Source: Corallium rubrum
Taxonomy: Eukaryota; Cnidaria; Anthozoa; Scleralcyonacea; Coralliidae
Reading direction: 5' to 3'
Assembly: GCA_964035015.1 (NCBI GenBank)
Contig: OZ035997.1
Coordinates: 69,875,632-69,939,631, forward strand
Length of the DNA: 64,000 nucleotides
In this document: positions 4,546-37,177 of the stretch, piece after piece
Numbering within the stretch: the stretch's first letter is position 1
Layout of the letters: each line of letters opens with the position of its first letter
Translations under genes and position numbers: made by a program
Notes under the pieces: generated by a model
The model's input: the letters and a program-made list of their open reading frames with translations, nothing else
What the model was told of the DNA's origin: nothing
Database searches by the model: none

Positions 4546-4880
4546 CTAAGAATCTTGTAGAAATTTCAAATTTTTTTGTTTAAAAGTTCCAATATTTAAA
4601 GAACTTCTAATATCTTTGTTTAATGAATTCCAACCGTAAATGGCATGATATCGCATTCTCTGCTTACCCCAATTTCTTATAACGTTGGGTAGTCTTAATT
4701 TATGCTTATTACGAGTGTTATAGTTATGTACATCTCCATATGATAATTCCATTGAATGATTTACATAACTATTTAAACATTTATAATTGAATAAACATCT
4801 ATGGTAAAATCTTCTTCGTTCTAGCGTAATCCAATTTAACATGGCAAGAGCTTCTGAGGTGGATGAACATAGTGGTTTGT
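4546..4880 (-). pseudogene. LINE reverse transcriptase, C-terminal end (cut by the Polinton)
   Basis: The minus-strand translation ends a LINE RT protein: ALAMLNWITLERRR, CLFNYKCLN, HNYNTRNKHKLRLP, GKQRMRYHAIYGWNSLN, all typical of the post-RT tail of Jockey/CR1-like non-LTR elements. The reading frame enters from the Polinton boundary at 4880. The missing upstream half is found beyond the other Polinton end at 37173-37640. After removing the Polinton and one copy of the 5-bp repeat, the two halves meet in frame. Confidence 0.8.
4876..4880. repeat. Target-site duplication TTTGT, left copy
   Basis: TTTGT directly precedes the left terminus (AGTAGTCATGG) and is repeated directly after the right terminus at 37173-37177. 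Polintons usually leave 6-bp duplications; here five bases match and the next differs. Confidence 0.7.
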
Positions 4881-5600
4881 AGTAGTCATGGAACAATGAC
4901 TATTTTTTTTAATGTGTTGGGGCCTGGCACTAGTTTTTAACCAATCAGATTGCAGTATTTTTTCCATTAGCCAATGAGTGTCGAGCATGTATGAAATTAG
5001 CATAATTTTGGCCGGGGGGTGTTCGAGAGTGGGTGTTGGCTCATCTCATTAGCATATTATTTTTTAGGAGGGTTGTGTGTGCGTTTTTGGGGTGGGGTGT
5101 GTGTGTTTTTTTGGGTGGGTGTTGTGGGGTGGTGCGGCGATGAGGTGTGGGTTGTATGGTGTGTGTGTTTCTTGTGGTTTATTGTTCTGCGTGCGTGTGT
5201 TGTGTGATTGTTGTTGTATGTTTATCATCCTTGCAGCATTCAAACACAATAATAACCGATGATATTATTGTGGTATGAGTGCTAAAAGGATGTCCTTTCT
5301 TTGTATTTACGTAGTAAAGGATGCTCGACGAGTTTCTTGTTCACATCATCATGTTTTATAGTGCTGGAATGCGGTCTGTGACGGTGAAACGTTTCAGACT
5401 ACATTTCAGCAATAAAAACACAACTTGTTTCTTCTTCTTCGTTTCACGCAGCTGTCGTGTTTCTTCGCGAAGAGTTCATGCGTCGAGAAGAGAGAGAGAG
5501 AGAGAGAGACGGGAGCACCCGATGTAACGCTGTCGAGAGGCAAGTTGAAGTGATTGTGAATTCTTATACGTATGATTATTTAGTAATATTATTTTTTAAA
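4881..5600 (+). repeat. Left terminal inverted repeat (two conserved blocks)
   Basis: Block 1 (4881-5206) is near-identical to the reverse complement of 36866-37172, differing by scattered substitutions and small indels in its G/T-rich part. Block 2 (about 5515-5600, including GTTGAAGTGATTGTGAA and TGATTATTTAGTAATATT) matches about 36640-36730 reversed. The stretch between blocks is diverged and contains a GA microsatellite at 5486-5506. Block 1 includes two CCAAT motifs (AACCAATCAG, AGCCAATGAG) and a G-rich stretch at 5088-5140. Confidence 0.88.
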
Positions 5601-8387: not shown

Positions 8388-8640
8388 AACGAAACCGAAA
8401 CCGGGATGAAATTGATTGGCATTCGAAACCGGAAAGGTTTTTTTTTTTTATTTATTCAACATAATTCCCTTTGATTGACATTCGAAACCGGAAAAGGGAT
8501 AATTTATTCATTCAACAGTTTCCTTTTCGAAACTGAATATGATTGACATTCGAAACCGGAAAAGGGATAATTCATTCATTCAACATTTCCTTTTCGAAAC
8601 CGGAAAAAAAAGGGATTATTTATTCATAGAAAAAAAACTG
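8388..8640 (+). repeat. Tandem repeats with TTCGAAACCGG cores
   Basis: Four imperfect units of about 70 nt share TTGATTGACATTCGAAACCG, a purine run (GGAAAAGGGATAATT) and TTCATTCAAC. The first is preceded by GAAACCGAAACC at 8391-8402. CCTTTTCGAAAC and CGAAACCGGAAAAGG face each other and could form short stems. The block lies between the two duplicated gene units and may be regulatory. Confidence 0.75.
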
Positions 8641-12217: not shown

Positions 12218-13102
12218 ATGGAATTATATTTAAAACAACATGTGAGTAACGAGCGCGTACTTCAAAAGTACGCGGATTTAACGCAAAAAGTGGTGGCTCT
12301 TCAAAAGAAGAATAATAAAGCGATTTTAGCGAAAGTATTCCCGACGAGTAAAGCGTGTGTAAAATTTACAATGCAGTCGATGATGGAGCTGGAGATGGAT
12401 TCGATCCCCCCGTTGGTTAACGTTATACAGCAAGCTAACGGTTACTTCAATTGGAGTGAACATGTTCTTATTGTGATTTCGACTTATCGAAATTACAAAA
12501 ATGACGAGATGCGTCTGGTGTTGCGTAGTAGCGAATTTGGAACCGGCGAATTAGTTTTGCAAAGAAAAGTACAGGTCGTTCCCGAAGAAGATTTAACATT
12601 CGATGACGATGGTGAAGAAACACCAGTGGTTATTCCTGGTGTATCAGAAGAAGAAGAAACCGTGTCGTGGGAAGACGAATGGGGGGGTTTTTCTTTTAAG
12701 AAAAACGATCCGCTAGCAGAGATCGCTACCCAGTTGAGCCGTTTTCATCACGACGTGTGCGGGAATGCTGGTGGGAAAAAAAGAAAGGCGCCTACTGCTA
12801 CTAATAAATCAACAAGCACAACAGCAACATCGAAGAAGAAAAAAAACGAAGAACAAATTATCGCATGTGAGTCGAAGAGGAAGAAGAATGAACAGTGTGA
12901 AATACCCATAAATATGTTCGCCAGCGCTGAATTAATTTATTTTTGCAGTATCGATAAAAGTCTAAGCGTAGAAGATTGTATTTGTAGATATAATGATGAA
13001 ATGAATGAGGGTTTAAAAGCAGCTGATAAAGTAGATTTTGTCAGTCTTATAAACACAGAGGGTTTTGAAGAGATCAGACGTATGGTTGAACAATTACGTT
13101 AA
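12218..13102 (+). CDS. Unrecognised 294-residue protein at head of the virion gene block
   Basis: The N-terminal 120 residues look like a folded alpha/beta domain. They are followed by a long acidic linker (about 125-150), a low-complexity Lys/Thr/Ser stretch with KKRK runs (about 187-225, nuclear-localisation-like), and a C-terminal helical region. It is the first gene of a plus-strand series ending with the protease at 19581, so a structural or early morphogenesis role is possible. I do not recognise a family. Confidence 0.65.
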   Translation: MELYLKQHVSNERVLQKYADLTQKVVALQKKNNKAILAKVFPTSKACVKFTMQSMMELEMDSIPPLVNVIQQANGYFNWSEHVLIVISTYRNYKNDEMRLVLRSSEFGTGELVLQRKVQVVPEEDLTFDDDGEETPVVIPGVSEEEETVSWEDEWGGFSFKKNDPLAEIATQLSRFHHDVCGNAGGKKRKAPTATNKSTSTTATSKKKKNEEQIIACESKRKKNEQCEIPINMFASAELIYFCSIDKSLSVEDCICRYNDEMNEGLKAADKVDFVSLINTEGFEEIRRMVEQLR

Positions 13103-13142
13103 AGTATTTTTTTTTTATAATTATTTTTTCAGAAAGAAAGAG

Positions 13143-14039
13143 ATGGCGAGGAAAAAAAAAACTGTATTTACTGAAGATTTCATTAAAAAAGCATCGCGAC
13201 TTCTAAAAGGAGAAACGTTAGAATTGGAACAATTAGAAAAATATAAACAACATAAACTGACTAGAAAAAAATATAGACGTTTAAATATACATGTGAGTGA
13301 AAAGAATGAACAGTGGGAAATTGATTTAGCAGAAAATAAAGATTTGGCGAGATTTAATCGTCAATTTCGTTATTGGCTTGTGTGTATTGATGTCTATTCG
13401 CGTTATGCGTGGGTGGAGTTTTTAAAGAAGAAAACGGCAAAAAATACAGCGGAAAAAATGGAAAAAATTTTAAAAAAAGATGGGGCGCCTAAGAAAATTC
13501 AGTGTGACGAAGGATCGGAATTTCAAATAATTCGTAAAACTTTGAGTAAAAAATATGGTTTTGAAGTTTTTCACACGTTCAATCGAGAAATTAAAGCCTC
13601 ACACGTCGAAAGAGTAATTCAAACTTTAAAAACAATGGTTCATCGTGTTTTAACGTTGACGGGTAGTTTTGATTATTATTCTTATTTTCGCATAATTCTC
13701 GAAAGATATAATAATTCACCGCATAAAAGTTTGGGTGGTGCCACACCCCATGAGCTTTATCGTGAAGATAAAAAACAAAAAAAAATTAAAAATATATTAC
13801 TACGTAAGATGATCTCGCCCGTCACTTTTACTAAAAGCGTGTTGAAAGAAGGAACGCTTGTGCGAATAGCGCGTGGAAAAACGAATATTTTTGAGAAAAG
13901 CAGTCTACGCCGTTGGACGGACGAAAAATTTAAAATCAAAAAAGTATTTGTAACGGATCCCGTGACGTATGAATTGGTGGATTTAAACGGTGAAAAAATC
14001 ACGGGGATATTTTATCGCGAAGAATTACAAACAATATGA
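13143..14039 (+). CDS. Retroviral-type (rve) integrase
   Basis: Integrase of the DDE/rve family, which joins the element's ends to host DNA. The catalytic triad is visible: D in WEIDLAENKD (about residue 60), D in IQCDEGSEF (about 120) and E in ASHVERVIQTLK (about 156), the last two about 35 residues apart. The typical tail NNSPHKSLGGATPHELY follows, then an SH3/chromo-like C-terminal region. ATG 13143 is used because upstream codons in this frame overlap the previous gene. At 298 residues it fits Polinton integrases. Its stop overlaps the next start (ATGA). It is intact. Confidence 0.93.
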   Translation: MARKKKTVFTEDFIKKASRLLKGETLELEQLEKYKQHKLTRKKYRRLNIHVSEKNEQWEIDLAENKDLARFNRQFRYWLVCIDVYSRYAWVEFLKKKTAKNTAEKMEKILKKDGAPKKIQCDEGSEFQIIRKTLSKKYGFEVFHTFNREIKASHVERVIQTLKTMVHRVLTLTGSFDYYSYFRIILERYNNSPHKSLGGATPHELYREDKKQKKIKNILLRKMISPVTFTKSVLKEGTLVRIARGKTNIFEKSSLRRWTDEKFKIKKVFVTDPVTYELVDLNGEKITGIFYREELQTI

Positions 14040-20864: not shown

Positions 20865-23800
20865 CTACAAAAAACCATAAGGAACGGTGTAAAAATTATT
20901 TTTAGCTACACGTTTGTTAAAAGTGAAAGTGAATTTTTTCTCTTCGTCTGCGGTGAAAATATGGTTGATTTTATCGCGTGTTATTTTATCTGTATATTTA
21001 ATTTTAATCAGCTGCGATTTATCTTCGACGCAATTTTTTAATGATTCAAAATTTAACTGTTTTTTTATTTTTTCATTGGTTAAACTAAAACCCTTTATGT
21101 GCACAATTTCGTTATCTAAATTTGTTCGGTACGAATACGATTTCGGACCTGTTGCGCAAAATTGAGTGATCCATTCATTTCTTTTTAACTCGTTTGTTAA
21201 ATCACCCAGATAATTCCCTCTCTTAACCGTTACGTCGCTAGTTTTACTCGTGTAAATTACGGAGTCGGTGTCAAAATACAAAACACGTTCGCCTAAGCTA
21301 TCGATCAACTCGTACAATTTCAAGCGCGCGTAGGCTGTGACAAAACTCGCAATAACTACGTTACCGGTTCTTAACGGGGTAGCAACGACATCGGTTTTTT
21401 GATAAGTGACACGCAAGGTGTTTTCGTTAACAAAATCAGTCGAAGTTAAATCTACATTCGGATCGTTCGCTAGTCTTAATAATTCGTGGTAATCGGATAA
21501 AAAATCGACTTTTGTATTATTATCGTTTTGTGCAAATTTACCCCAAAGTGAATTTAATATATTTTTCGCTGTAGCTCGTAAACCCGGGTTATATTCTATC
21601 TTCTCTTTTTCTAATAAAATACCCTCGTTTCTATAGTAGTCAGCGATATATTTATCAACTTCGGAATCGATTAAATTTTTATCGTCGTCATAACATTCGT
21701 CGGGAAAACCGCTCGCCTCCTGTTTTATTTTTAAAAAACAATTTACAAACTCTTGAAAAATTCTTTCCTGACGCGGGTAATGGTAAATTTCATAAGTTTC
21801 AATGATTCTGTAACCTTTTTCAATAGCTTTATTTACTTCTACGCTAGACCAGGTACCCGAAATACACCGTTCATCTTCGTTATGCGTACACGGTGTTAAT
21901 TGAATTCTGCTGGCGCACGCGTGACACAAAGGAAATATTAACCGGTCGTTAAGACGTACGGGTAAAACGGGAAAATACAAGTGTTGCGGCGGTAAAATAC
22001 GGCATTTTACTAAACCGAATACTTCAGCTATTTTCACACGCTCACATTCTTCTTTAATATATATCGTTGGATGACCGACGGGGAATTTGTTGGCTTTTTG
22101 AACGTAGGGGTATAAAGATGTGAAATCATCGTAATTAATTTTTTCATCCATGTTTGTGTTTTTAAATAAGCAAACAGGCGATGTTCGACCACCGTAAAGC
22201 GCATCTCTTACTTCTAACGGGAGATAAGCGCTGTAAAAAATCTTTTTTTCAATTATATTTTTTTTCGTGAATTTACATTCTTCTTGAAAATCACATTCCC
22301 ATTTTTCTATTACTTTATAACCGGCTTTTTCCATGTCATGCGTGAATTTTTTTGTCGCCGCGTAAAGATGCGTAAATTTCGTATTATTTAAACGATTCGT
22401 TTCGTAGGGATAATAACATTTCACGCACCCGTGAAAATAGCATCCGTGAAATTGATAGACGGTGTTCTCGTAAAAACCGTCGACATAACGACCCAAAATT
22501 TGCTTTTCACCATTTCGCGAACATTTATACTCTAACGCACCGTTTGCTTCTTCTGCGTTTATTTTATCTAGCCACATTAGCGCTACAACACTTTGATTAG
22601 CACGACCCCTATACCCGCTAGCGGGTATGATTCCGACACATTTGTCTCTTAAAAAATTCATACGAAATACTTTTAACGTCAGACTTGCTATGGTGATACA
22701 TTCTGTGTCGTAAAAAGGGACGACGCCAGAAGTATCACGCATAAACATAGCGAATTTAATGCATCCTTTTCGTAAAATATCGACGTCCGAGCTACAGTAA
22801 TAATACATTTCTTCTTCAAATACATATGGTTTTTCTTTTTTTTTCAAATACCATTCTTCAAATTTAGCTTTTGTTTTCTCCTCCATATTTTCAAGATCGA
22901 AATAATCACGCGCGACAATATCCCCTACATAGAATAAATCTGTAAATTTATACGGATGAAATCCCTTCGTTAATTCCTCAAGCCCCATTGTTTCTGGAAT
23001 TTTAGACAATTTCATGTGTAAAAATGAATAGCTATCGAAAAAAGTTATTTTCTTATCAGGGATTTTCAACATCATTATTTTACATCCATTCATTATAGTG
23101 TCAGGGTAAATTTTTTTTTCATTAATGAGATATTGAAAAATAAAAATAGTGTCAAACCGCCCCCCATTATGCGCTAACCAAACAGAATTTTCTTGTGCTA
23201 ATAGAAACTCGCATAATTCCTTTACAGTATCGCTCCCTTGAAAAACAAATTCACGTCTTCCACAGCAAGGTTGAATATTATCGCTCGCGATGTGTTTTTT
23301 ACTTTTTTTAAACTCAATATTTTCACATTTACGACACACTTTTTGCACAACGCAATAATACGGTACCATTAATTTATTTTCATCGACGCGCGTTTCAAAA
23401 TCAAAAAAAAATAAAGTAGGTTGTTTAATTTGTTTGTTTGTTTTCACGGTTTTCATATAACAAAAATGCGTTTTATCCTTATAGTCGTTGCAGTGGTGAC
23501 AAAACTGCTTATTACAATCATGCTTTTTCGTATTCTTAGCAGAAAAAAAACGAAAACGCGGTACAATCTTAGCGCAAGTTTGGCAAAAAAATAAGTAACT
23601 ACACGGTGTTAATTTTCCGTAATTACCCTGTTGAGGGAAAAAAACACGGTTCGACAAATGAGCTAAAAAACATTTATTATTATAAAATAAAATGTTACAA
23701 TTGGAACACTCAATTTTGCAGTCGATGGTGCGATGACATTCAGATTGTTCATAGCAACGTTGGCATGTCAAATGATTATGGCACATATGCGTGTCTTTAC

Positions 23801-24887
23801 GCTCATGATTTAAGTAATAATTCATGCATTTCACGCAAAATTTGCTCGGTGGTAACTTCGAAAATTTAACCATGCTTAAAACGACATCGTAATGTTTATT
23901 ATTTAACCACAAACAAACAATGTCGTTGGTTAACTTAATTAAATTACCCTCTTTATCGCATCGCGAATCATACACTATATCGTTATCAAATTGATCCGAA
24001 TATACTACTAAATCAACACCCTGCCGTTTAAGAAAATTCTGATAAATACCGCCGTAATGTTTACCCCCCACACAACATCCTTCAACTATACCGCATTTGT
24101 CATAAATCTCACGAACCTCATCAATAGTGTACAGTGTATCGACAGCTGTATGTGGGGATCTTTCCATTTGCACATACCGCGTGTCTTTTTTTAACCACGA
24201 TAAACCCACTAATAAACTAACTGCGAAGCAACAATTTTTAATGATTTTGTTTAACCCATCACACACTATGGAAAAAACACCCATGCGTTGATCGCGCCCG
24301 TATTTTTCCACATTTTTACCACCACCCCCCTCATCATCATCATCGCCGCCTCCACTACCCAATTGCTGATATATTCTTTTTCTGCCCAATTGTTTGTTGT
24401 TTTTTTTATTTTTATTATACGTGTGGGGAAAAGTCTGAATTACCACGTTTGATTCCCACCCGTCAGCGATCAACGCACGGTTGCTCTGCATCATTTTTTC
24501 AAAAATATTTAATAAAAAATTGACGTTAAAATCTTTAAGTTGAAGAACAGCGGTTGAAAAATAAGATTTTGGAGCGTGTGAGAAAATAAAACGCACGTAA
24601 TCATTCTCTGAACTTGTAGACGCTCGAGCTACATTCAGCAAGTAAGTAAACACTACACGTAACGAATGAATGAAGGCGATAAAATTCATACCTGATTTTC
24701 GCGCAATCGAAACGTGTAGTGTTTTTTGAGAAAATTTAAATTTTTCATTATAAGAAGAACTTATAGTATTAGTTTTAAAATCTTCTTCAACTCTTTTTTC
24801 ATCTCCTCTTTTTTTACGTTCTTCTAATAATGCCCTTAATTCACTCACATCTTCATCTGTAAACACATAAGGGTTTTTTTCAGCCAT
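20865..24887 (-). CDS. Protein-primed family B DNA polymerase
   Basis: A 1340-residue polymerase. Exonuclease motifs: FDFETR (D496), AHNGGRFD (about 572) and YCSSDVDIL (about 697). Polymerase motifs: DFTSLYPYVQ (about 921), KNILNSLWGKFAQ (about 1109), YFDTDSVIY (about 1204) and TGPKSYSY (about 1248). These define protein-primed PolB, which replicates linear genomes from a terminal protein. The N-terminal 490 residues include a Cys/His-rich region (CMNYYLNH...CQRCYEQSEC...CQTC...CHHC) likely to bind zinc. Intact, and the longest frame in the window. A 55-residue frame overlaps its start by 8 nt, and the ATPase follows in the same frame after TAG. Confidence 0.95.
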   Translation of the reverse strand: MAEKNPYVFTDEDVSELRALLEERKKRGDEKRVEEDFKTNTISSSYNEKFKFSQKTLHVSIARKSGMNFIAFIHSLRVVFTYLLNVARASTSSENDYVRFIFSHAPKSYFSTAVLQLKDFNVNFLLNIFEKMMQSNRALIADGWESNVVIQTFPHTYNKNKKNNKQLGRKRIYQQLGSGGGDDDDEGGGGKNVEKYGRDQRMGVFSIVCDGLNKIIKNCCFAVSLLVGLSWLKKDTRYVQMERSPHTAVDTLYTIDEVREIYDKCGIVEGCCVGGKHYGGIYQNFLKRQGVDLVVYSDQFDNDIVYDSRCDKEGNLIKLTNDIVCLWLNNKHYDVVLSMVKFSKLPPSKFCVKCMNYYLNHERKDTHMCHNHLTCQRCYEQSECHRTIDCKIECSNCNILFYNNKCFLAHLSNRVFFPQQGNYGKLTPCSYLFFCQTCAKIVPRFRFFSAKNTKKHDCNKQFCHHCNDYKDKTHFCYMKTVKTNKQIKQPTLFFFDFETRVDENKLMVPYYCVVQKVCRKCENIEFKKSKKHIASDNIQPCCGRREFVFQGSDTVKELCEFLLAQENSVWLAHNGGRFDTIFIFQYLINEKKIYPDTIMNGCKIMMLKIPDKKITFFDSYSFLHMKLSKIPETMGLEELTKGFHPYKFTDLFYVGDIVARDYFDLENMEEKTKAKFEEWYLKKKEKPYVFEEEMYYYCSSDVDILRKGCIKFAMFMRDTSGVVPFYDTECITIASLTLKVFRMNFLRDKCVGIIPASGYRGRANQSVVALMWLDKINAEEANGALEYKCSRNGEKQILGRYVDGFYENTVYQFHGCYFHGCVKCYYPYETNRLNNTKFTHLYAATKKFTHDMEKAGYKVIEKWECDFQEECKFTKKNIIEKKIFYSAYLPLEVRDALYGGRTSPVCLFKNTNMDEKINYDDFTSLYPYVQKANKFPVGHPTIYIKEECERVKIAEVFGLVKCRILPPQHLYFPVLPVRLNDRLIFPLCHACASRIQLTPCTHNEDERCISGTWSSVEVNKAIEKGYRIIETYEIYHYPRQERIFQEFVNCFLKIKQEASGFPDECYDDDKNLIDSEVDKYIADYYRNEGILLEKEKIEYNPGLRATAKNILNSLWGKFAQNDNNTKVDFLSDYHELLRLANDPNVDLTSTDFVNENTLRVTYQKTDVVATPLRTGNVVIASFVTAYARLKLYELIDSLGERVLYFDTDSVIYTSKTSDVTVKRGNYLGDLTNELKRNEWITQFCATGPKSYSYRTNLDNEIVHIKGFSLTNEKIKKQLNFESLKNCVEDKSQLIKIKYTDKITRDKINHIFTADEEKKFTFTFNKRVAKNNFYTVPYGFL

Positions 24888-25499: not shown

Positions 25500-26057
25500 A
25501 TGGTTAAACAAGGTGTGAATAGAGGTGGTCGAAAAATGAGTTTAATTTCGCAAAATGTGCGCGCTGTTTTACAATGTCGAAGCTTCACGTTAAAAAGAAA
25601 ACGATGTCGAAAAAGAACAGCTCACACGCATAAATGTTGGATTCATCTAGCAAAAGAAGATAACTTACGTGTTAAAAAATCACAGATTCCAAACGCAGGC
25701 AAAGGGCTGTACGCTTGGAAAAAACCTTTTAGACGCGATACACCCGTCTCTACGTACACAGGTGAAAGAACCACAGTAAAACGTATGGATCGAAAATACG
25801 GTGCTAAAACAATCGCACAATATAGCTTATGCGATGGTCCCCGTCACTGTGTCGATGCTTATAAATCAACGGATGGAGCGGCTCGATTCTGTAATGATGC
25901 GAAGGGATCGCGACATAAAAATAACGCTTGTTTTACAGGAACAACTAAACACAATAATCGATTTAAATTACATGCAACCGCGGGTATAAAACCCCATCAG
26001 GAAATTTTTGCCGACTACGGTAACGAATACTGGCCGCGTGGGTACTTTAAAAAGTAA
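25500..26057 (+). CDS. SET-domain protein (lysine methyltransferase-like)
   Basis: A 185-residue protein. A Cys/His cluster (CRSFTLKRKRCRKRTAHTHKCWIHL, split here as CRSF...C...H.H.CWIH; residues 26-50) probably binds zinc. The SET domain follows: IPNAGKGLYAWK (GxG motif), RFCNDAKGSRHKNNA (the RFxNH-like SAM/substrate motif with D for H) and IFADYGNEYW (catalytic Tyr region). SET proteins methylate lysine, usually in histones, so this could modify host or viral chromatin. The Asp in place of the usual His of NHxC may affect activity. The ATG at 25500 precedes a second Met at residue 13. Confidence 0.85.
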   Translation: MVKQGVNRGGRKMSLISQNVRAVLQCRSFTLKRKRCRKRTAHTHKCWIHLAKEDNLRVKKSQIPNAGKGLYAWKKPFRRDTPVSTYTGERTTVKRMDRKYGAKTIAQYSLCDGPRHCVDAYKSTDGAARFCNDAKGSRHKNNACFTGTTKHNNRFKLHATAGIKPHQEIFADYGNEYWPRGYFKK

Positions 26058-28792: not shown

Positions 28793-30013
28793 ATGAGTAA
28801 ACGCCAAAGAAAAGAAGAAGATGAAATAAATGAAGACAGTGAACGTTCAAAAGAAACAACTATCACTGAATTATTAAGAAGCGTGCTGTTGTACACATGT
28901 TTTCGTTTTTTTCCCAACCGAGAAATCGGATTGCTGTACTGGTTGATGGGGTTAGTGAATATCTACGAAGGGGGTTACATAAGACTAGCTCCACAACTAC
29001 AAGACGACGCCGGCGCCAACCCCACAGCTTGTTGGTGTATTCCGCATCAATATTGGACATACGATGGTGGGAATGTATTACCCGGGTGTGGAAAATCACG
29101 GCACGTCATCGCGAGAAATGAAGAATTTTATATAACAATTCCCTATATGTATGAACACGATAGAAACTGGTGTGTTTTAAATGAAGGACGTCATATAGTA
29201 TTAGTAAGAGATCAACGATTTATTTATTCATTTTTTCCCAAAAGAGGATGTCATGTATATAATTCTTTTTTTTTTCCTATAATATCAGCCGACTTTGAGC
29301 CATGGCACACTGAAATTTATCACCGTATAGCTTTTCTAAATAACAACCGCATGTATACGCCCTACTCTTTCTGGATATATCGTGGTTGTTGGAACAAGAA
29401 AACATGTATTTCATTATACGACGTATTCGTATACATACATGGAAAATACGGTGATGTAGGCGTAACTATAGCGGTATATCTGTATTGTAAATCACCAAAT
29501 TTTTTCCACCAAGCACTTAAATGCAAAGACGGTGAAATAAGTGTACGATTTTTGTTAAATTTAACCTGTTGCTTTGTTTGTTTTTGTGAGAAACACAATC
29601 CCCGCGCGATGATTCACAAACAATCGTATATTTACGATATTTATGATATTATTTCCAAAGAGGAATTAGAAGAAGATATAGATTATGAAATGTGTTTTTT
29701 TGACGATTGTGAGGAAAAAAATTCCTCACAGTTAGACACACATGAATTTGAAATGTTTGATTATGACACTGTGTCAAAAAAATCGATCAAAAATATAAAA
29801 CAAAACTTAACACAAACACTAACAGAACCAAAAGTCATATTATCCGATTTTAACACCGGTGAATATGTGTTCACGTGTCCAAAAACAATACACGCAATAA
29901 CTGTCGAGTACATGAGCGGTGTCAACGACACCATGCTGACTTTTATTCGTAATTTCTTTCCCTCTGTATATAGTAGCGCTAATTTTATTAGTTATTTACA
30001 TAAACTACTCTAA
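28793..30013 (+). CDS. MSKR-type protein copy B (406 aa)
   Basis: An intact paralogue of the split gene at 10539-11738. Shared landmarks are MSKR at the start, GLLYWLMGLVNIYEGGYI (about residue 43), VLNEGRHIVLV, and FCEKHNPRAMI (about 264). The middle is rich in aromatic residues and Cys; the last 130 residues are acidic, then end in a helical segment. No enzyme motif or signal peptide is recognised. Two copies in one element imply a useful or diversifying function. Its 3' end overlaps the convergent Fic gene by 9 nt. Confidence 0.75.
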   Translation: MSKRQRKEEDEINEDSERSKETTITELLRSVLLYTCFRFFPNREIGLLYWLMGLVNIYEGGYIRLAPQLQDDAGANPTACWCIPHQYWTYDGGNVLPGCGKSRHVIARNEEFYITIPYMYEHDRNWCVLNEGRHIVLVRDQRFIYSFFPKRGCHVYNSFFFPIISADFEPWHTEIYHRIAFLNNNRMYTPYSFWIYRGCWNKKTCISLYDVFVYIHGKYGDVGVTIAVYLYCKSPNFFHQALKCKDGEISVRFLLNLTCCFVCFCEKHNPRAMIHKQSYIYDIYDIISKEELEEDIDYEMCFFDDCEEKNSSQLDTHEFEMFDYDTVSKKSIKNIKQNLTQTLTEPKVILSDFNTGEYVFTCPKTIHAITVEYMSGVNDTMLTFIRNFFPSVYSSANFISYLHKLL

Positions 30014-30607
30014 TATATCTTTCAAATTAAGTAACGTATGCAAATGTGATTTTCTATCTTCAAAAACACGTTGACCTTTTTTACATTGTAATATTTCTAG
30101 TTGTTCGCATAACATTTTATGTTGTTTAAAAGACTTTACTCCACACGTTAAATTATTTCTCAATATAGCGTGTAAAGCTTTTCCCACGCGTCCATTACCA
30201 TCACCAAACGGATGTATATATTCGAATATATAATATATTCGTGTAGGTATCAAATTCAATACGTCACTCTCAATTCTAATTCTACGATAATGTTCATCTA
30301 ATAATTCCATGTATAATTCTATATAGTCAGGCGCTGGTGGATTGTGATTACCGCAATATCTGTAATTTAGAGAATATTTCCCCTCACTGTAATTTTTCAT
30401 GCAACGCTTATGTAAATAAACGCATATCTCACTTATTTGCATATGGTCTCGATCTGATTTTTTTAAACGGTAAAAATCACTTAATCCCCGTGCATATTTT
30501 GCACACTTGTAAAAAAAAAACAAATTCTCTTCGTTTTCCTCCATGAGTACGGTGTAATAAGAAAATATTTTGATTCTTAAATGATGTTCCCAATCCATTT
30601 CGTTCAT
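30005..30607 (-). CDS. Fic-domain protein
   Basis: The Fic core HPFGDGNGRVGK is present, matching HxFx(D/E)GNGRxxR except that the last Arg is Lys. Fic enzymes transfer AMP or related groups from nucleotides to Ser/Thr/Tyr of target proteins, using the motif His as base. The upstream helix IPTRIYYIFEY is typical. No clear inhibitory (S/T)xxxE(G/N) motif is seen. First ATG at 30607 gives 200 residues; the frame opens further up with non-ATG codons. That upstream DNA repeats the preceding gene, so the natural N-terminus may be lost or split. A Fic protein would be expected to alter host signalling. Confidence 0.82.
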   Translation of the reverse strand: MNEMDWEHHLRIKIFSYYTVLMEENEENLFFFYKCAKYARGLSDFYRLKKSDRDHMQISEICVYLHKRCMKNYSEGKYSLNYRYCGNHNPPAPDYIELYMELLDEHYRRIRIESDVLNLIPTRIYYIFEYIHPFGDGNGRVGKALHAILRNNLTCGVKSFKQHKMLCEQLEILQCKKGQRVFEDRKSHLHTLLNLKDILE

Positions 30608-30641
30608 CGCACACACACAGGAGCAGTCTTTGAGATCTCCT

Positions 30642-31058
30642 TCAAACGCAATTAGCAACGATATGCGATAATATCCCCGATAGTATCTTTACCCAGGAGT
30701 TGCTCCTTCGAAATTTCGTTGTCGTTACTCCCCAATAAGCGGTGTCAAAGTTCACGTCGAGACAACAATCTTTAAGATGTTGACACGTGATTTTTGTAAT
30801 ATCACGAATAAATAATTCCTGGTTTTTCTCTACACCTTCAAAAAACACTATTAACAACGAATAATACGCGATAATATCCCCGATAGTATAACGTTGAATT
30901 TTTTTGTAAATATCCAAGAATTGCTCCTTCGAGATATTAAGGGATATATATTTTAATAATTCTCTTTGTATAGAAATGTTTTCTTTAATTTTTTTCTCAA
31001 ATATTCCATCTGGTGTAAAAACCCCAGTTTTATTCACCTCCTCTATTATAAATTCCAT
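30642..31058 (-). CDS. 138-residue protein related to the Fic gene's 5' region
   Basis: Residues 42-85 (ISKEQFLDIYKK...TIGDIIAYYSLLIVFFEG) resemble conceptual codons just upstream of and into the Fic gene (ISKEQLL...TIGDIIAY, then LLIAFEGD), across a frame change. At DNA level GCGATAATATCCCCGATAG occurs at 30665 and again at 30868. The last 25 residues of this protein are therefore probably an out-of-frame reading of the second repeat copy. It looks like a partial tandem duplication of the Fic 5' end. No independent function recognised. Confidence 0.5.
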   Translation of the reverse strand: MEFIIEEVNKTGVFTPDGIFEKKIKENISIQRELLKYISLNISKEQFLDIYKKIQRYTIGDIIAYYSLLIVFFEGVEKNQELFIRDITKITCQHLKDCCLDVNFDTAYWGVTTTKFRRSNSWVKILSGILSHIVANCV

Positions 31059-33438: not shown

Positions 33439-33690
33439 CAGAACCATAGGAATACGTAATTTTTTACCTATTTACTAAGAATACGAAATTTCACCGTTTT
33501 CCCAGAATTATATAAATATTACTTTTCTCAGAACCAATTAACATATTTTTTTTCACTAAGAATCGAAATTTCACCGTTTTTCCCAGAATCACTTTTCCCA
33601 GAATCCAATTATCATAGGAATACATAATTTTTACCTAAATACTAAGAATCGACATTTCACCGTTTTCCCAGAAATATAAATACTTTTTAA
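33439..33690 (-). repeat. Three degenerate tandem units (TTCTGGGAAAACGGTGAAATTT..ATTCTTAG)
   Basis: On the minus strand the blocks TTCTGGGAAAACGGTGAAA, ATTCTTAG and GGTAAAAATTAYGTATTCC recur with a period near 85 nt. The units link the end of the 60-residue frame at 33635 to the start of the 71-residue gene. A related copy is at 8670-8722 on the plus strand in the left arm. A promoter or duplication origin is possible. Confidence 0.6.
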
Positions 33691-33817
33691 GAGCAGTCAT
33701 ATGTGTTTTTTTTGAAGTGCATAGAAGAACATCGGTTTCCCAGTCCGTGGTGGGTGAGTATCGTTTAATTGTATTTCTTTGTCGTAAATCGTCAAATACA
33801 ATTTTTGCGTTACCCAT
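33635..33817 (-). CDS. Possible 60-residue protein
   Basis: ATG 33817 gives MGNAKIVFDDLRQRN. The last 12 codons lie within the tandem repeat unit. The N-terminal 48 residues read as ordinary protein. Kept at low confidence. Confidence 0.35.
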   Translation of the reverse strand: MGNAKIVFDDLRQRNTIKRYSPTTDWETDVLLCTSKKTHMTALKKYLYFWENGEMSILSI

Positions 33818-33861
33818 AGGTTGAGGTTTGAAGAAGAAGAAATCTGGTGTAGGTTAGCTAG

Positions 33862-33916
33862 CTGAATGAATTCCGTACAGCAAGTTTACATAATTTGATG
33901 TGTGGAATTCATTGAG
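33862..33916. ncRNA. Hairpin 1
   Basis: Arms 33862-33880 and 33898-33916 around a 17-nt loop; core AATGAATTCC pairs with GGAATTCATT. Confidence 0.55.
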
Positions 33917-33968
33917 AGAACTTAAGAAACACTCTTAAATTGAAATAGAGAAGAAGAAAGAAAGAAAA

Positions 33969-34070
33969 GATCGTGCAAACGAGACCCTTCATCAGAGAGA
34001 AATGTAAAGAATGTTAACAACTCTTTAAATTGACTCTCTGATGATGTGTCATACGTAGCCTGACACGATC
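33969..34070. ncRNA. Hairpin 2 (long)
   Basis: Core arms 33990-34010 and 34022-34043 (CATCAGAGAG with CTCTCTGATG); an outer stem GATCGTG/CACGATC closes the structure at 33969-33975 and 34064-34070. Confidence 0.65.
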
Positions 34071-34127
34071 CCAGAGGAACAAATGGATTCTTCAGATACG
34101 TTGAATGCTGAGCATGTTGAATGCTAA

Positions 34128-34169
34128 CCCATGCTCTTATTTACAGGTGTAAAAATAAGGCTGTCTGGG
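34128..34169. ncRNA. Hairpin 3
   Basis: Arms 34128-34144 and 34149-34169 with a 4-nt loop; CTTATTTAC faces GTAAAAATAAG with a small bulge. Confidence 0.5.
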
Positions 34170-34197
34170 TCTCTTTTTATTCTTGTAAATGAGAGAT

Positions 34198-34217
34198 CGT
34201 CGTCGTCGTCGTCGTCA
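34198..34217 (+). repeat. (CGT)n microsatellite
   Basis: Short run of CGT triplets directly before the zinc-ribbon start codon. Confidence 0.7.
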
Positions 34218-34219
34218 CC

Positions 34220-34423
34220 ATGAATGATTGTTACAGATGCAATAATCAAATTCAAAATGTGAATCACATGTTATATTATACGTGCCGTGAATGTGATGTT
34301 TATGAAGTATTTTGTGATTTTTGCCGAAGAAATTATCCCAAAGATGTCATATGTAAAATCTACTACAGATGCGATTGTAACAATAGACAAGAACGTTGGC
34401 GTAAAAAATATTTTAATGAATAA
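34220..34423 (+). CDS. CxxC zinc-ribbon small protein, copy 2
   Basis: A 67-residue protein with CYRC, CREC, CDFC and CDC cysteine clusters, paralogous to the minus-strand gene at 28224: both show YY(F/T)TCR(K/E)CDV, a further (Y/F)CD(L/F)CRR, then C-x-C, and end with RW. Lies between hairpins 3 and 4, so it would share a transcript with the array if that is read on the plus strand. ATG 34220 has context CACCATGA. Confidence 0.65.
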   Translation: MNDCYRCNNQIQNVNHMLYYTCRECDVYEVFCDFCRRNYPKDVICKIYYRCDCNNRQERWRKKYFNE

Positions 34424-34433
34424 AAAAATATTC

Positions 34434-34498
34434 AAATAAAGCTCTAAGAGAAAATGGTTGTCATTTACTGATTACCATCTTTTCGTAAAGCTTCATTT
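34434..34498. ncRNA. Hairpin 4 (AAGCTTTA subfamily)
   Basis: Arms 34434-34458 and 34474-34498, about 25 nt each with few mismatches; loop contains TCATTTACTGAT, shared with hairpin 19. Confidence 0.65.
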
Positions 34499-34541
34499 AT
34501 ATATTACCATAGAAGATTACAAATGATGAAAAGAATATCAA

Positions 34542-34609
34542 TTTCACACAAAATGAGGTGTGGAAATAGGTTTAAAATTTATTTCTTCATCATTTTGTCT
34601 GATGCGAAA
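34542..34609. ncRNA. Hairpin 5
   Basis: Arms 34542-34570 and 34578-34609; CAAAATGA pairs with TCATTTTG, with several G-U pairs if read on the plus strand. Confidence 0.6.
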
Positions 34610-34675
34610 CAACAACAAAAAGAAGACAAGAAAATGACAGAAAGAAAGAAAAGAAAGAAAGACTCAATGATTTAT

Positions 34676-34750
34676 GCGTACGCTGTCCAGACATGGTTAT
34701 CACTTGAAAATACAGTTCTCAAATGATAGGAATGTCGTGCCAGCGCAGGC
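34676..34750. ncRNA. Hairpin 6
   Basis: Arms 34676-34710 and 34716-34750, 35 nt each with a 5-nt loop; among the longest stems of the array. Confidence 0.65.
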
Positions 34751-34808
34751 AGATTAAAAATTTAAAGAGAAATATAAAGATTCCACACCAACAGATTTTT
34801 TATCTCAT

Positions 34809-34860
34809 TTACAAGTATGAATGGATAGTACTTGACATAATTATTCATTTGTTCTTGTAA
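34809..34860. ncRNA. Hairpin 7
   Basis: Arms 34809-34828 and 34841-34860; TTACAAG pairs with CTTGTAA at the base. Confidence 0.5.
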
Positions 34861-34908
34861 CGGAGAAGAAGACTATTTTTTTTTTGGAAGCTTCCGTCTC
34901 AAGGTTTT

Positions 34909-34970
34909 TTCAAAAACAAAACGATTTTAAAATAAATTTTTTTTTATTTCAAAAACGTTTTGTTGTTGAA
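34909..34970. ncRNA. Hairpin 8
   Basis: Arms 34909-34936 and 34943-34970, 28 nt each; ACAAAACG pairs with CGTTTTGT. Confidence 0.6.
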
Positions 34971-35074
34971 CACTGGAGTTTCATTTTACGAGGAGAAACA
35001 AAAAATCACTCATTGGAAGAAGATTACAATAAATGAAAAGAAAACAAAACAAAGGAAAAGACAACTCTGATAGT

Positions 35075-35140
35075 GTACTTGGTTACCATCTTTGCCAGCG
35101 CTTCCTTCGCAAAGCTTTGGTTCTGATGGTGTCTTGGTAC
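35075..35140. ncRNA. Hairpin 9 (weak)
   Basis: Arms about 35075-35103 and 35108-35140; GTAC/GTAC and ACCATC/GATGGT pair, with several mismatches between. Confidence 0.4.
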
Positions 35141-35206
35141 TCCGTCATTTCCAGCGCTTTATGGAGGAAGATAATTACAATGAAAAGAACAAAGGAGAGA
35201 CAAAAA

Positions 35207-35275
35207 AAAAAAAGCTTTGAAATAAGGCTGCTTCAGTACAAATTCTCGAGCAGACTTTTTTTCAAAGCTTTTTTT
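35207..35275. ncRNA. Hairpin 10
   Basis: Arms 35207-35232 and 35249-35275; AAAGCTTTGAAA pairs with TTTCAAAGCTTT, one mismatch and one bulge further in. Confidence 0.65.
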
Positions 35276-35337
35276 TCGTCTGTTGGTTTTATGGAGGAAG
35301 ATTACAATAATGATGAAAAGAAAACAAATTGCGAGGG

Positions 35338-35383
35338 TAGAGAAGGAACGATGTATCGATAGCGATACTCCGTTCCTTCTCTA
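35338..35383. ncRNA. Hairpin 11 (near perfect)
   Basis: Arms 35338-35358 and 35363-35383, 21 nt each around a 4-nt loop; only a 2-nt internal mismatch. Confidence 0.7.
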
Positions 35384-35480
35384 GTCTCACGATCATGTTT
35401 TTTTCAAAGCTTTTCGTCTGTTGGTTTTATGGAGGAAGATTACATGATGAAAGAAATCACAAGGAGAAAACAATGTGGTA

Positions 35481-35536
35481 AAAACCTTTGGAAAAGTCTG
35501 CCCTGAATATCTCTGGCAGCCTTCTTGAAAGGTTTT
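35481..35536. ncRNA. Hairpin 12
   Basis: Arms 35481-35502 and 35515-35536, 22 nt each with a 12-nt loop, the classic size for a microRNA precursor. Confidence 0.7.
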
Positions 35537-35601
35537 CGCCTGTTGTATTCGTTTATGGAGGATTACAAAAGAAATAAAGAAAGAAAAGACGAGAATGTTG
35601 G

Positions 35602-35671
35602 TCTTGAACACGTGATGATAAAAGAAAGTCTTGTCTAGCTGGTCTCTCTTCTTTCATCATGTTGCTAAAGA
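35602..35671. ncRNA. Hairpin 13
   Basis: Arms 35602-35630 and 35641-35671; GTGATGATAAAAG faces CTTTCATCAT with isolated mismatches. Confidence 0.6.
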
Positions 35672-35710
35672 CGAAAAAAGAAATTTACAAGAACAGGAAG
35701 ATGATTATTT

Positions 35711-35779
35711 AAATGACTCTTTGGCAAAGAACTTGTCTATCATTTAATAGATCGACCTTTCTTTTCCAAAGCTTTATTT
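35711..35779. ncRNA. Hairpin 14
   Basis: Arms 35711-35740 and 35747-35779; TCTTTGG pairs with CCAAAG and GTCTAT with ATAGAT, small bulges between. Confidence 0.55.
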
Positions 35780-35853
35780 ATTTATTTATTTAACATTACT
35801 CATTAGCATGGAGGAAGAAGATTACAATAATGATGAAAAGAAACAATATTTTA

Positions 35854-35903
35854 GATAAAGCTTTAAAAAATACTGATACCCATTATTTTTTTAAAACTTT
35901 ATC
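35854..35903. ncRNA. Hairpin 15 (AAGCTTTA subfamily)
   Basis: Arms 35854-35875 and 35881-35903; GATAAAGCTTTAAAAAA faces TTTTTTAAAACTTTATC. Confidence 0.55.
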
Positions 35904-35963
35904 CCAAATATCGGAAAAAAGACACATCGCTGCAGACGACGAAGAAGAAGAAGAAAAGGCTTG

Positions 35964-36036
35964 CTATTGAAACACTATGATAAAAGAAGACTTGTAAAAC
36001 TAGCTAGTCTTCTTCTTTATAATAGTCTTTCAATAG
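35964..36036. ncRNA. Hairpin 16
   Basis: Arms 35964-35994 and 36004-36036; CTATTGAAA/TTTCAATAG, ACTAT/ATAGT and AGAAGACT/AGTCTTCT pair in order. Confidence 0.65.
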
Positions 36037-36152
36037 TATTTTCAAACACAAAAGATATTCTTCAGGTGGTGATAAAGAAGAAGAAAAACAAGATGTCCTT
36101 TTAGCAAACAACCACAATGATATCACGCGATATTATCAATAATGTATTTTAG

Positions 36153-36211
36153 ATGAAGCTTTACCAAAAACGGTAAGTATTTACTGCTATCCGTCTTTGC
36201 TAAAACTTCAT
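36153..36211. ncRNA. Hairpin 17 (AAGCTTTA subfamily)
   Basis: Arms 36153-36180 and 36184-36211, 28 nt each; flanks (from 36141 to 36222) extend the pairing weakly. Confidence 0.65.
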
Positions 36212-36263
36212 TTACATATATTATTCACATATCATGTTGCTAAAGACGTATAAAAACGAAGAC

Positions 36264-36342
36264 AAAGCTTTTCTCTTGGTGACCCAACGCGCAAAAAAAA
36301 ATCACAATTTCTGTGCTCTGGGTCTCCTCAAGAAAAAACTTT
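36264..36342. ncRNA. Hairpin 18
   Basis: Arms 36264-36293 and 36313-36342 with a 19-nt loop; TCTTG/CAAGA and GACCCA/TGGGTC are the strongest blocks. Confidence 0.6.
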
Positions 36343-36447
36343 AAAACTGATGTGAAGAAGTCAAAGAAAGAAAGAAAAGAAAAGAAAGAAAGACTGTTGG
36401 ATCCCCAGATGTAAAAATTACAATAATGATAAAAGAAGATATTATAG

Positions 36448-36508
36448 ATAAAGCTTTAGAATAAGATGATTGTCATTTACTGATAATCGTCTTTTTGTAG
36501 AGCTTCAT
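36448..36508. ncRNA. Hairpin 19 (AAGCTTTA subfamily)
   Basis: Arms 36451-36471 and 36485-36505, 21 nt each; loop shares TCATTTACTGAT with hairpin 4. Confidence 0.65.
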
Positions 36509-36582
36509 TTACATATCAGTCATCAAAAGAAACCAAAAAAAAAAAAAAACGATTTTTTTAAAAATGGATAAAAAGATGTTTT

Positions 36583-36633
36583 AAATAAAGCTTTAGAATT
36601 ACTAATTCCCTCTTTTTTTCTACATCTTCATTT
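36583..36633. ncRNA. Hairpin 20 (decayed)
   Basis: Short arms 36583-36598 and 36618-36633 of the same subfamily; the upper stem does not pair. Confidence 0.35.
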
Positions 36634-36639
36634 ACATTT

Positions 36640-37172
36640 CGATAAAAAAATATTACTAAATAATCACGCGACTAAGATTTCACAATCACTTCAACCTGGC
36701 TAGCGAGAGCGATACATCCGGTGTAGTGCTACTACTGCTGCTGCTGAGAAGAAACATATCGCTTAGCAAAACAGCACCAACATTTGCGATATTCATATAT
36801 TATAAATGTTGCATGTGTCGGTGTTTGTATTGTTATGATAATAAACCAACACACCCAGCAAACTGCACACAACACACGCACGCAGAACAATAAACCACAA
36901 GAAACACACACACCATACAACGCACACCTCATCGCCCCCGCACCACCCCACAACACCCACCCCAAAAAACACACACACAACCCTCCTAAAAAATAATATG
37001 CTAATGAGATGAGCCAACACCCACTCTCGAACACCCCCCGGCCAAAATTATGCTAATTTCATACATGCTCGACGCTCATTGGCTAATGGAAAAAATAACG
37101 CAATCTGATTGGTTAAAAACTAGTGCCAGGCCCCAACACATTAAAAAAAATGTATATTGTTCCATGACTACT
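36640..37172 (-). repeat. Right terminal inverted repeat
   Basis: Reverse complement of the left repeat: block 1 at 36866-37172 and block 2 at about 36640-36730. The outermost bases (minus strand) are AGTAGTCATGG. Shorter than the left copy through indels in the middle. It abuts the hairpin array. Confidence 0.88.
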
Positions 37173-37177
37173 TTTGT
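37173..37177. repeat. Target-site duplication TTTGT, right copy
   Basis: Directly follows the right Polinton terminus and matches 4876-4880. Confidence 0.7.

Follow-up and report, generated by a model that had tools for sequence, protein, structure and literature searches.

Results

The window, by which we mean the whole 64,000-nucleotide stretch of Corallium rubrum DNA analysed here, contains a 32.3-kb Polinton, a representative of the integrating virus-like elements of eukaryotes. Its long terminal inverted repeats (left, outer pieces, 4881..5221; right, 36851..37172) have 220-nt arms with 95% complementarity, plus inner pieces, and start with the AG expected of Polintons (first letters AGTAGTC). 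TTTGT flanks both ends (4876-4880 and 37173-37177) as a 5-bp putative target site duplication; the 6 bp that are standard for Polintons are reached here only with one mismatch (GTTTGT/TTTTGT). A retroviral-type (rve) integrase frame lies on the + strand at 13065..14039 (E 2.4e-10), and on the - strand a DNA polymerase B of 1340 aa occupies 20865..24887, whose match to the DNA_pol_B_2 domain (E 2.2e-53) points to the protein-primed type of family B polymerase typical of Polintons. Over the part searched, the polymerase is 61-63% identical to two ENA proteins and mostly 44-47% identical to Paramuricea proteins, and no relatives of it were found in viral_contigs. Looking for capsid proteins, packaging ATPase and protease, we obtained no informative match for most of the other frames tried, and homologue and family searches with the 406-aa frame at 28793-30013 found none. 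The identification of the element as a Polinton, made in an earlier note on this DNA, is borne out by the polymerase, the integrase and the long terminal inverted repeats together.

Adjoining the right terminal repeat is a dense array of imperfect hairpins, which we located by inverted-repeat scoring that is strand-symmetric and gives no bonus to G.U pairs (thresholds 24 and 28). Given in + strand coordinates, these are H01 (33847..33932), H02 (33969..34070), H03 (34134..34195), H04 (34427..34505), H05 (34521..34595), H06 (34675..34751), H07 (34781..34889), H08 (34909..34970), H09 (35101..35170), H10 (35200..35283), H11 (35318..35404), H12 (35466..35550), H13 (35598..35675), H14 (35699..35791), H15 (35844..35913), H16 (35962..36038), H17 (36129..36233), H18 (36264..36342), H19 (36438..36517) and H20 (36552..36651), that is, 20 hairpins at 33847-36651, regularly spaced, and a 21st, H21, at 36764-36835. 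H04, H15, H17, H19 and H20 share one sequence family, H13 and H16 another. At threshold 24 the total score of the array is 816, whereas seven stretches of 3.4 kb elsewhere in the element hold 7-9 hairpins each and score 182-236. At threshold 28 there are 21 hairpins; 200 dinucleotide shuffles average 1.97 and never exceed 5. Folding agrees: z is below -3 in 25% (+ strand) and 17% (- strand) of 89 windows of 90 nt in the array, and in 1.8% of 979 + strand windows of the element outside it. Under a looser RNALfold filter the array failed to stand out from the remainder of the window, so the strictness of the criterion matters. The proposal of about 20 hairpins beside the right terminal repeat, far more than in dinucleotide-shuffled sequence, therefore holds. 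The interval first given for them, 33862..36633, does contain the array, but the latter slightly overruns both ends and, instead of hairpins filling almost all of it, 34220-34423 is a conserved short reading frame.

This frame, on the + strand inside the array, encodes a Cys-rich product of 67 aa without a match in Pfam or PHROG; its variation is highest at third codon positions, and it is open with its motif in 31 of the 37 copies fetched (see below). Upstream of the array, a candidate 5' splice site, GGTGAGTA (33753..33760, + strand), retains GGTGAGT in all 28 copies whose alignment covers it and the complete GGTGAGTA in 27, and a candidate 3' splice site, TTATTTACAG (34137-34146, + strand), in the 5' arm of H03, is kept in 15 of 16 copies with alignment there. 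The donor-like site and the Cys-rich frame, both conserved on the + strand, suggest that the array is transcribed rightward, with putative splicing.

The search of related Polintons proposed in the earlier note found arrays in 40 examined copies in the same genome, the window's included, with 6-21 hairpins per copy and sets that differ between copies: 469 hairpins in 38 copies, and 14 and 10 in two further ones (C134 and C8:20.09M). For this sample 40 of 104 candidates were scored, and among the array matches listed 37 copies were fetched besides the window's, two short matches (C102 and C18:4.0M) being left out; for most of the 40 copies it was therefore resemblance to the array that led to their detection. 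Starting instead from the polymerase, for which 35 of 819 candidate matches in the genome were scored, 21 of the 35 lie some 9-13 kb from a listed array (counted by hand). Five places among the other 14 were examined: two carry arrays (C134 and C8:20.09M), at C124 homology is lost before the array, and two showed no right-end homology at the expected place. Across 431 hairpins in 37 copies (L009 left out), the median span is 78 nt and the median loop 5 nt, with a single loop in 424, so that in size, form and stability against shuffles they match the imperfect stem-loops of about 60-100 nt expected of animal microRNA precursors. They fall into 27 sequence families (again without L009), many of them common to two subfamilies of the element, and families have been gained, lost and duplicated among copies.

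The pairing of these hairpins is kept beyond chance by compensatory change, as expected of microRNA precursors. Stem pairs changed on both sides number 27, against 11.9 +/- 2.7 with shuffled partners, and kept pairing is 0.916 against 0.894 +/- 0.003 (300 shuffles, which retain the relatedness among copies); compensatory pairs can be seen in the 29-row alignment of H01 (A1). Stem positions taken together evolve at the rate of the spacers (0.077 for both in one subfamily, 0.122 against 0.120 in the other), so the constraint is visible in co-variation and not in slower change. Loops change at 0.122 against 0.077 for stems in the first subfamily and at 0.103 against 0.122 in the second, and within families they are about as conserved as the arms. 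Mismatches are conserved in 30 of 478 stem columns, and 188 are mixed. In doubly changed pair columns, state pairs of transition type number 50 and those of transversion type 43, the latter perhaps in part misaligned paralogues.

Tests for a signature of the RNA strand were neutral. Tolerance of G.U over A.C, expected of microRNA precursors, was not found along family trees (127 WC>GT against 107 WC>AC events, with no positive-control microRNA set), among distinct variants (53 against 51) or in shared pair columns (70 against 55, p 0.21, not significant); cell counts (198 against 122) do lean to G.U, but they count inherited changes many times over. Nor is there a folding strand bias: of 27 families, 12 fold better on the + strand, as do 10 of the 17 with at least 4 members (p 0.38). 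Tables of CNNC, basal UG and apical UGU, motifs known from Bilateria, have no positional peak by inspection, no Rfam family reaches its cut-off (the best microRNA model scores 24.7 bits where 70 are required), and complementarity of the hairpins to the element's own genes does not exceed that of a reversed control. The host has an Argonaute gene with the full domain set, a Dicer-type frame that combines a PAZ domain with two RNase III domains, and, on C51, another RNase III locus. A let-7 search of the host gave no match, but neither did its controls, which makes it uninformative.

Discussion

To our knowledge, little is known of how Polintons handle host RNA silencing, and the literature we searched listed no hairpin array of this kind in a Polinton. 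The microRNA role proposed for the array in the earlier note is, on the strength of the sequence, plausible but unproven: hairpin size and form and the kept pairing speak for it, and the RNA-strand signature, the motif peak and self-complementarity do not. The reading that we favour, at somewhat less than an even chance, is that the array, likely as one rightward RNA, is cut by host RNase III into guide RNAs of about 22 nt. Host Dicer, and probably Drosha, would cut the hairpins of this single transcript, the resulting guides would be loaded, and any one hairpin would have few targets among the transcripts of the host or rival elements. Few, because published cnidarian microRNAs require near-full complementarity to their targets (PMC11811051); with few transcripts per hairpin, a large, fast-changing stock of guides would be favoured over few stable ones. 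More tentatively still, we envisage octocoral Polintons as carrying an armoury of silencing RNAs that is modular and evolves fast: dozens of hairpin families, which copies would swap, duplicate and lose in the manner of cassettes, would each yield a near-fully complementary guide directed at genes of host defence or at rival elements.

The equal rates of change in stems and spacers lower the odds of the microRNA reading and raise those of two others. In one, the palindromes would exist at the level of DNA without an RNA role: inverted repeats would form, duplicate and be partly repaired arm-to-arm by template switching in strand-displacement replication, or would serve as single-stranded DNA or cruciforms near the terminus. 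Mismatches and folding energy show no strand polarity, in favour of this reading, and among transition-type double changes 16 have only A.C intermediates and 14 only G.T ones, similar numbers that are expected if arm templates arm. We nevertheless consider it unlikely, if the most serious competitor, because the dense array is found only beside the right end and is not spread over the element, mismatches persist in the mixed stem columns, the array adjoins a + strand frame and a donor-like site that are both conserved, and the transversion-type changes may partly be paralogue misalignment. In the other, a chain of double-stranded RNA modules would blunt antiviral RNAi by tying up Argonaute, Dicer or the dsRNA partners of Dicer, with pairing alone mattering; pairing retained despite sequence turnover, the variety of families and the failure to detect self-targets all suit such a decoy, but within families the loops are about as conserved as the arms, beyond what a sequence-blind decoy needs, and G.U tolerance is absent, which makes it improbable.

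The hairpins might also be chance palindromes in what remains of a repetitive coding region that has diverged, some spacers being readable as short acidic peptides (MEEDYNNDEKK-like). This we rejected as highly implausible: outside the Cys-rich frame only 89 of 546 distinct indels have a length divisible by three, marking the array as non-coding there, and the longest frames besides the Cys-rich one differ between copies (three longest of each; 14 copies taken, L009 without result).

Among known systems, clusters of viral microRNAs occur in herpesviruses. These resemble the array in that many pre-miRNA-sized hairpins cluster at a single place in a DNA virus-like genome and change fast between relatives; here, in contrast, they belong to a Polinton integrated in an octocoral, with varying numbers per copy, and are known from sequence alone. 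Adenovirus VA RNA blunts antiviral RNAi and is likewise structured and non-coding, from a linear DNA virus with protein priming, but an adenovirus makes one or two VA RNAs by Pol III and not an array of 20 diverse hairpins. The cnidarian host with its Argonaute and Dicer genes, the imperfect inverted repeats and the high turnover recall cnidarian microRNAs, which turn over fast and whose precursors have been proposed, in Nematostella, to arise from imperfect inverted repeats (PMC9923473); the hairpins here differ in belonging to a mobile element and in forming large arrays. In planthoppers, 77 bp of Polinton-like sequence lie between miR-n58 and miR-n174, which have the same seed, and PMC6152972 reads this as a Polinton insertion into the cluster; microRNA hairpins and Polinton sequence adjoin there too, but the cluster has two microRNAs only.

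Should the array prove to act at the level of DNA, it would still be unusual, a system of palindromes maintained across the family next to one terminus. If it makes guides, a mobile element would wield RNA silencing as a weapon and not merely be its victim, and the near-full complementarity rule of cnidarians would make the targets findable by sequence and the arms race readable from genomes. An armoury of this kind, if real, would be a first for Polintons, and in cnidarians it would be the first microRNA system of a mobile element.

A Polinton with a hairpin array

The element occupies 32,292 bp of the window (4881-37172), is bounded by terminal inverted repeats that begin AGTAGTC and comprise 220-nt arms of 95% complementarity plus inner pieces, and is flanked by a target duplication of 5 bp (TTTGT), or of 6 bp if one mismatch is allowed. 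It encodes a family B DNA polymerase and an rve integrase; judged from these genes and the repeats it is a Polinton/Maverick, the identity that the earlier note had given it. Homology and family searches identified no capsid genes among the frames tried. The cargo includes a Fic-domain frame (30005-30658) and a SET-domain frame (25500-26057), possibly specifying host-modifying proteins. Tandem 60-70-nt repeats with TTCGAAACCGGAAAAGGGATAATTCATTCATTCA lie at 8407-8626, and three imperfect direct repeats of ~38 nt, similar to TTTCACCGTTTTCCCAGAAT, stand immediately upstream of the array (33471-33674), where they may form a control region.

Using a scoring that is symmetric for both strands, we found 20 imperfect inverted repeats in 33847-36651 and one further at 36764-36835 (H01 to H21 in + strand order). 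At the same threshold, seven stretches of equal length elsewhere in the element hold 7-9 repeats each; at a stricter one, the 21 hairpins compare with a mean of 1.97 and a maximum of 5 in 200 dinucleotide shuffles of the region, and folding-energy z-scores are concordant. The scoring, the z-scores and this shuffled-sequence comparison all bear out the earlier note's array of about 20 hairpins; within the note's interval (33862-36633), 34220-34423 is a Cys-rich frame. Five hairpins (H04, H15, H17, H19 and H20) belong to a single family, having outer arms in common and different inner parts; other neighbouring units, most strongly H11 and H12, share purine-rich spacers but not hairpins.

The array is family-wide

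In the 474-Mb host genome the array DNA has at least 214 matches (the best 40 of 104 candidates being scored), and 37 copies were fetched besides the window. Where the terminus was recognised, the sequence beyond it differs between copies, which are therefore separate insertions. Arrays, which the earlier note had proposed to seek in related Polintons, are present in all 37 and the window, giving 469 hairpins (6-21 per copy) that, with one locus (L009) left out, fall into 27 sequence families, many of them common to the two subfamilies of copies. Among 35 scored polymerase matches, 15 of them without a stop, 21 lie ~9-13 kb from a listed array; of five checked among the other 14, two carry an array, of 14 and 10 hairpins respectively, and three have no right end there. 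The array is a real, unusual and family-wide feature. In the single subfamily-2 array checked, the upstream genes are colinear with 23.85-32.78 kb of the window (85% then 72% identity) while the array holds 10 hairpins, so that arrays appear to turn over faster than genes. At another fetched locus (L036, 3011-4101), very strong long palindromes occur in flanking DNA past the element's end.

Pairing is kept by co-variation

With copies aligned to the window, 27 stem pairs are doubly changed without loss of pairing; shuffling like partners inside each hairpin gives 11.9 +/- 2.7 such pairs, 21 at most. This partner shuffle likewise gives 30 doubly changed cells against 98 observed, and retained pairing of 0.894 +/- 0.003 against 0.916; doubly changed pairs are also visible inside single hairpin families. 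On the other side, stem positions taken together are not better conserved than spacers: both change at 0.077 substitutions per site in one of the subfamilies, and stems at 0.122 and spacers at 0.120 in the other. In these alignments, constraint is visible as co-variation, not as slower change. Only 89 of 546 distinct indels have lengths divisible by three, so outside the Cys-rich frame the region is non-coding.

This conserved 67-aa frame (34220-34423, + strand) shows a third-position excess: third codon positions have 0.065 substitutions per site in one subfamily and 0.195 in the other, and the remaining positions 0.020-0.081. It is open, with its Cys-rich motif, in 31 of the 37 fetched copies, and has no match to Pfam or PHROG. 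A copy at C8:20.09M (L053, reverse strand, ~1048-2456) keeps about ten hairpins and matches the Cys-rich region as a fragment only, so array and frame are separable.

RNA or DNA?

The evidence for an RNA role is weaker than that for pairing. If + strand RNA were under selection, G.U would be expected to be tolerated over A.C; no significant excess was found on family trees (127 vs 107), by distinct variant (53 vs 51) or by shared column (70 vs 55, p 0.21). Of the 27 families, 12 fold more stably on the + strand, as do 10 of the 17 with at least four members. Inside families, loops and arms are conserved to about the same degree; in window-based alignments, loops are more variable than stems in just one of the two subfamilies. 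Inspection, with no formal test, gave no positional peak of bilaterian processing motifs in the array hairpins, and complementarity of the array to its own element's sequence is not above control. The main rival to small RNAs is that the palindromes are maintained at the DNA level. Points favouring RNA are the Cys-rich frame on the same strand and two candidate splice sites: GGTGAGT (33753-33759), a good 5' site that is intact in all 28 copies covering it, and TTATTTACAG at 34137, a candidate 3' site in the 5' arm of H03 that is intact in 15 of 16. Small-RNA precursors are our leading reading of the array, at slightly less than an even chance.

The host has silencing genes. Piwi-domain matches occur on five contigs, and two head-to-head Piwi-domain genes, each one open frame of ~1130 aa, lie at G000:C39:11181801-11188867; one is an Argonaute. 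Over the part searched, an Argonaute frame of this genome shares 77% identity with a protein of Dendronephthya, 73% with Xenia and 68% with Paramuricea. Some unnamed ENA proteins are closer still, reaching 82%; by score, the top entries are two long fish proteins with 48-50% identity. From this comparison the host looks like an octocoral. A Dicer-type frame has a PAZ and two RNase III domains, and a further RNase III locus lies on C51.

Among the titles and abstract openings listed, no paper was found that describes such an array in Polintons, Mavericks or adintoviruses, and the words microRNA, miRNA and hairpin are absent from the main text of a study of vertebrate Mavericks (PMC8097293). In the planthopper, a 77-bp Polinton-like stretch between miR-n58 and miR-n174 is read by the authors as an insertion (PMC6152972); the two could instead be a Polinton-borne miRNA pair. 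Studies of cnidarians report that miRNAs require near-full complementarity (PMC11811051), that they turn over fast and that, in Nematostella, miRNA precursors loaded on AGO1 are proposed to arise from imperfect inverted repeats (PMC9923473). In such a host, one would expect a large and changing array in a Polinton that needs many specific guides.
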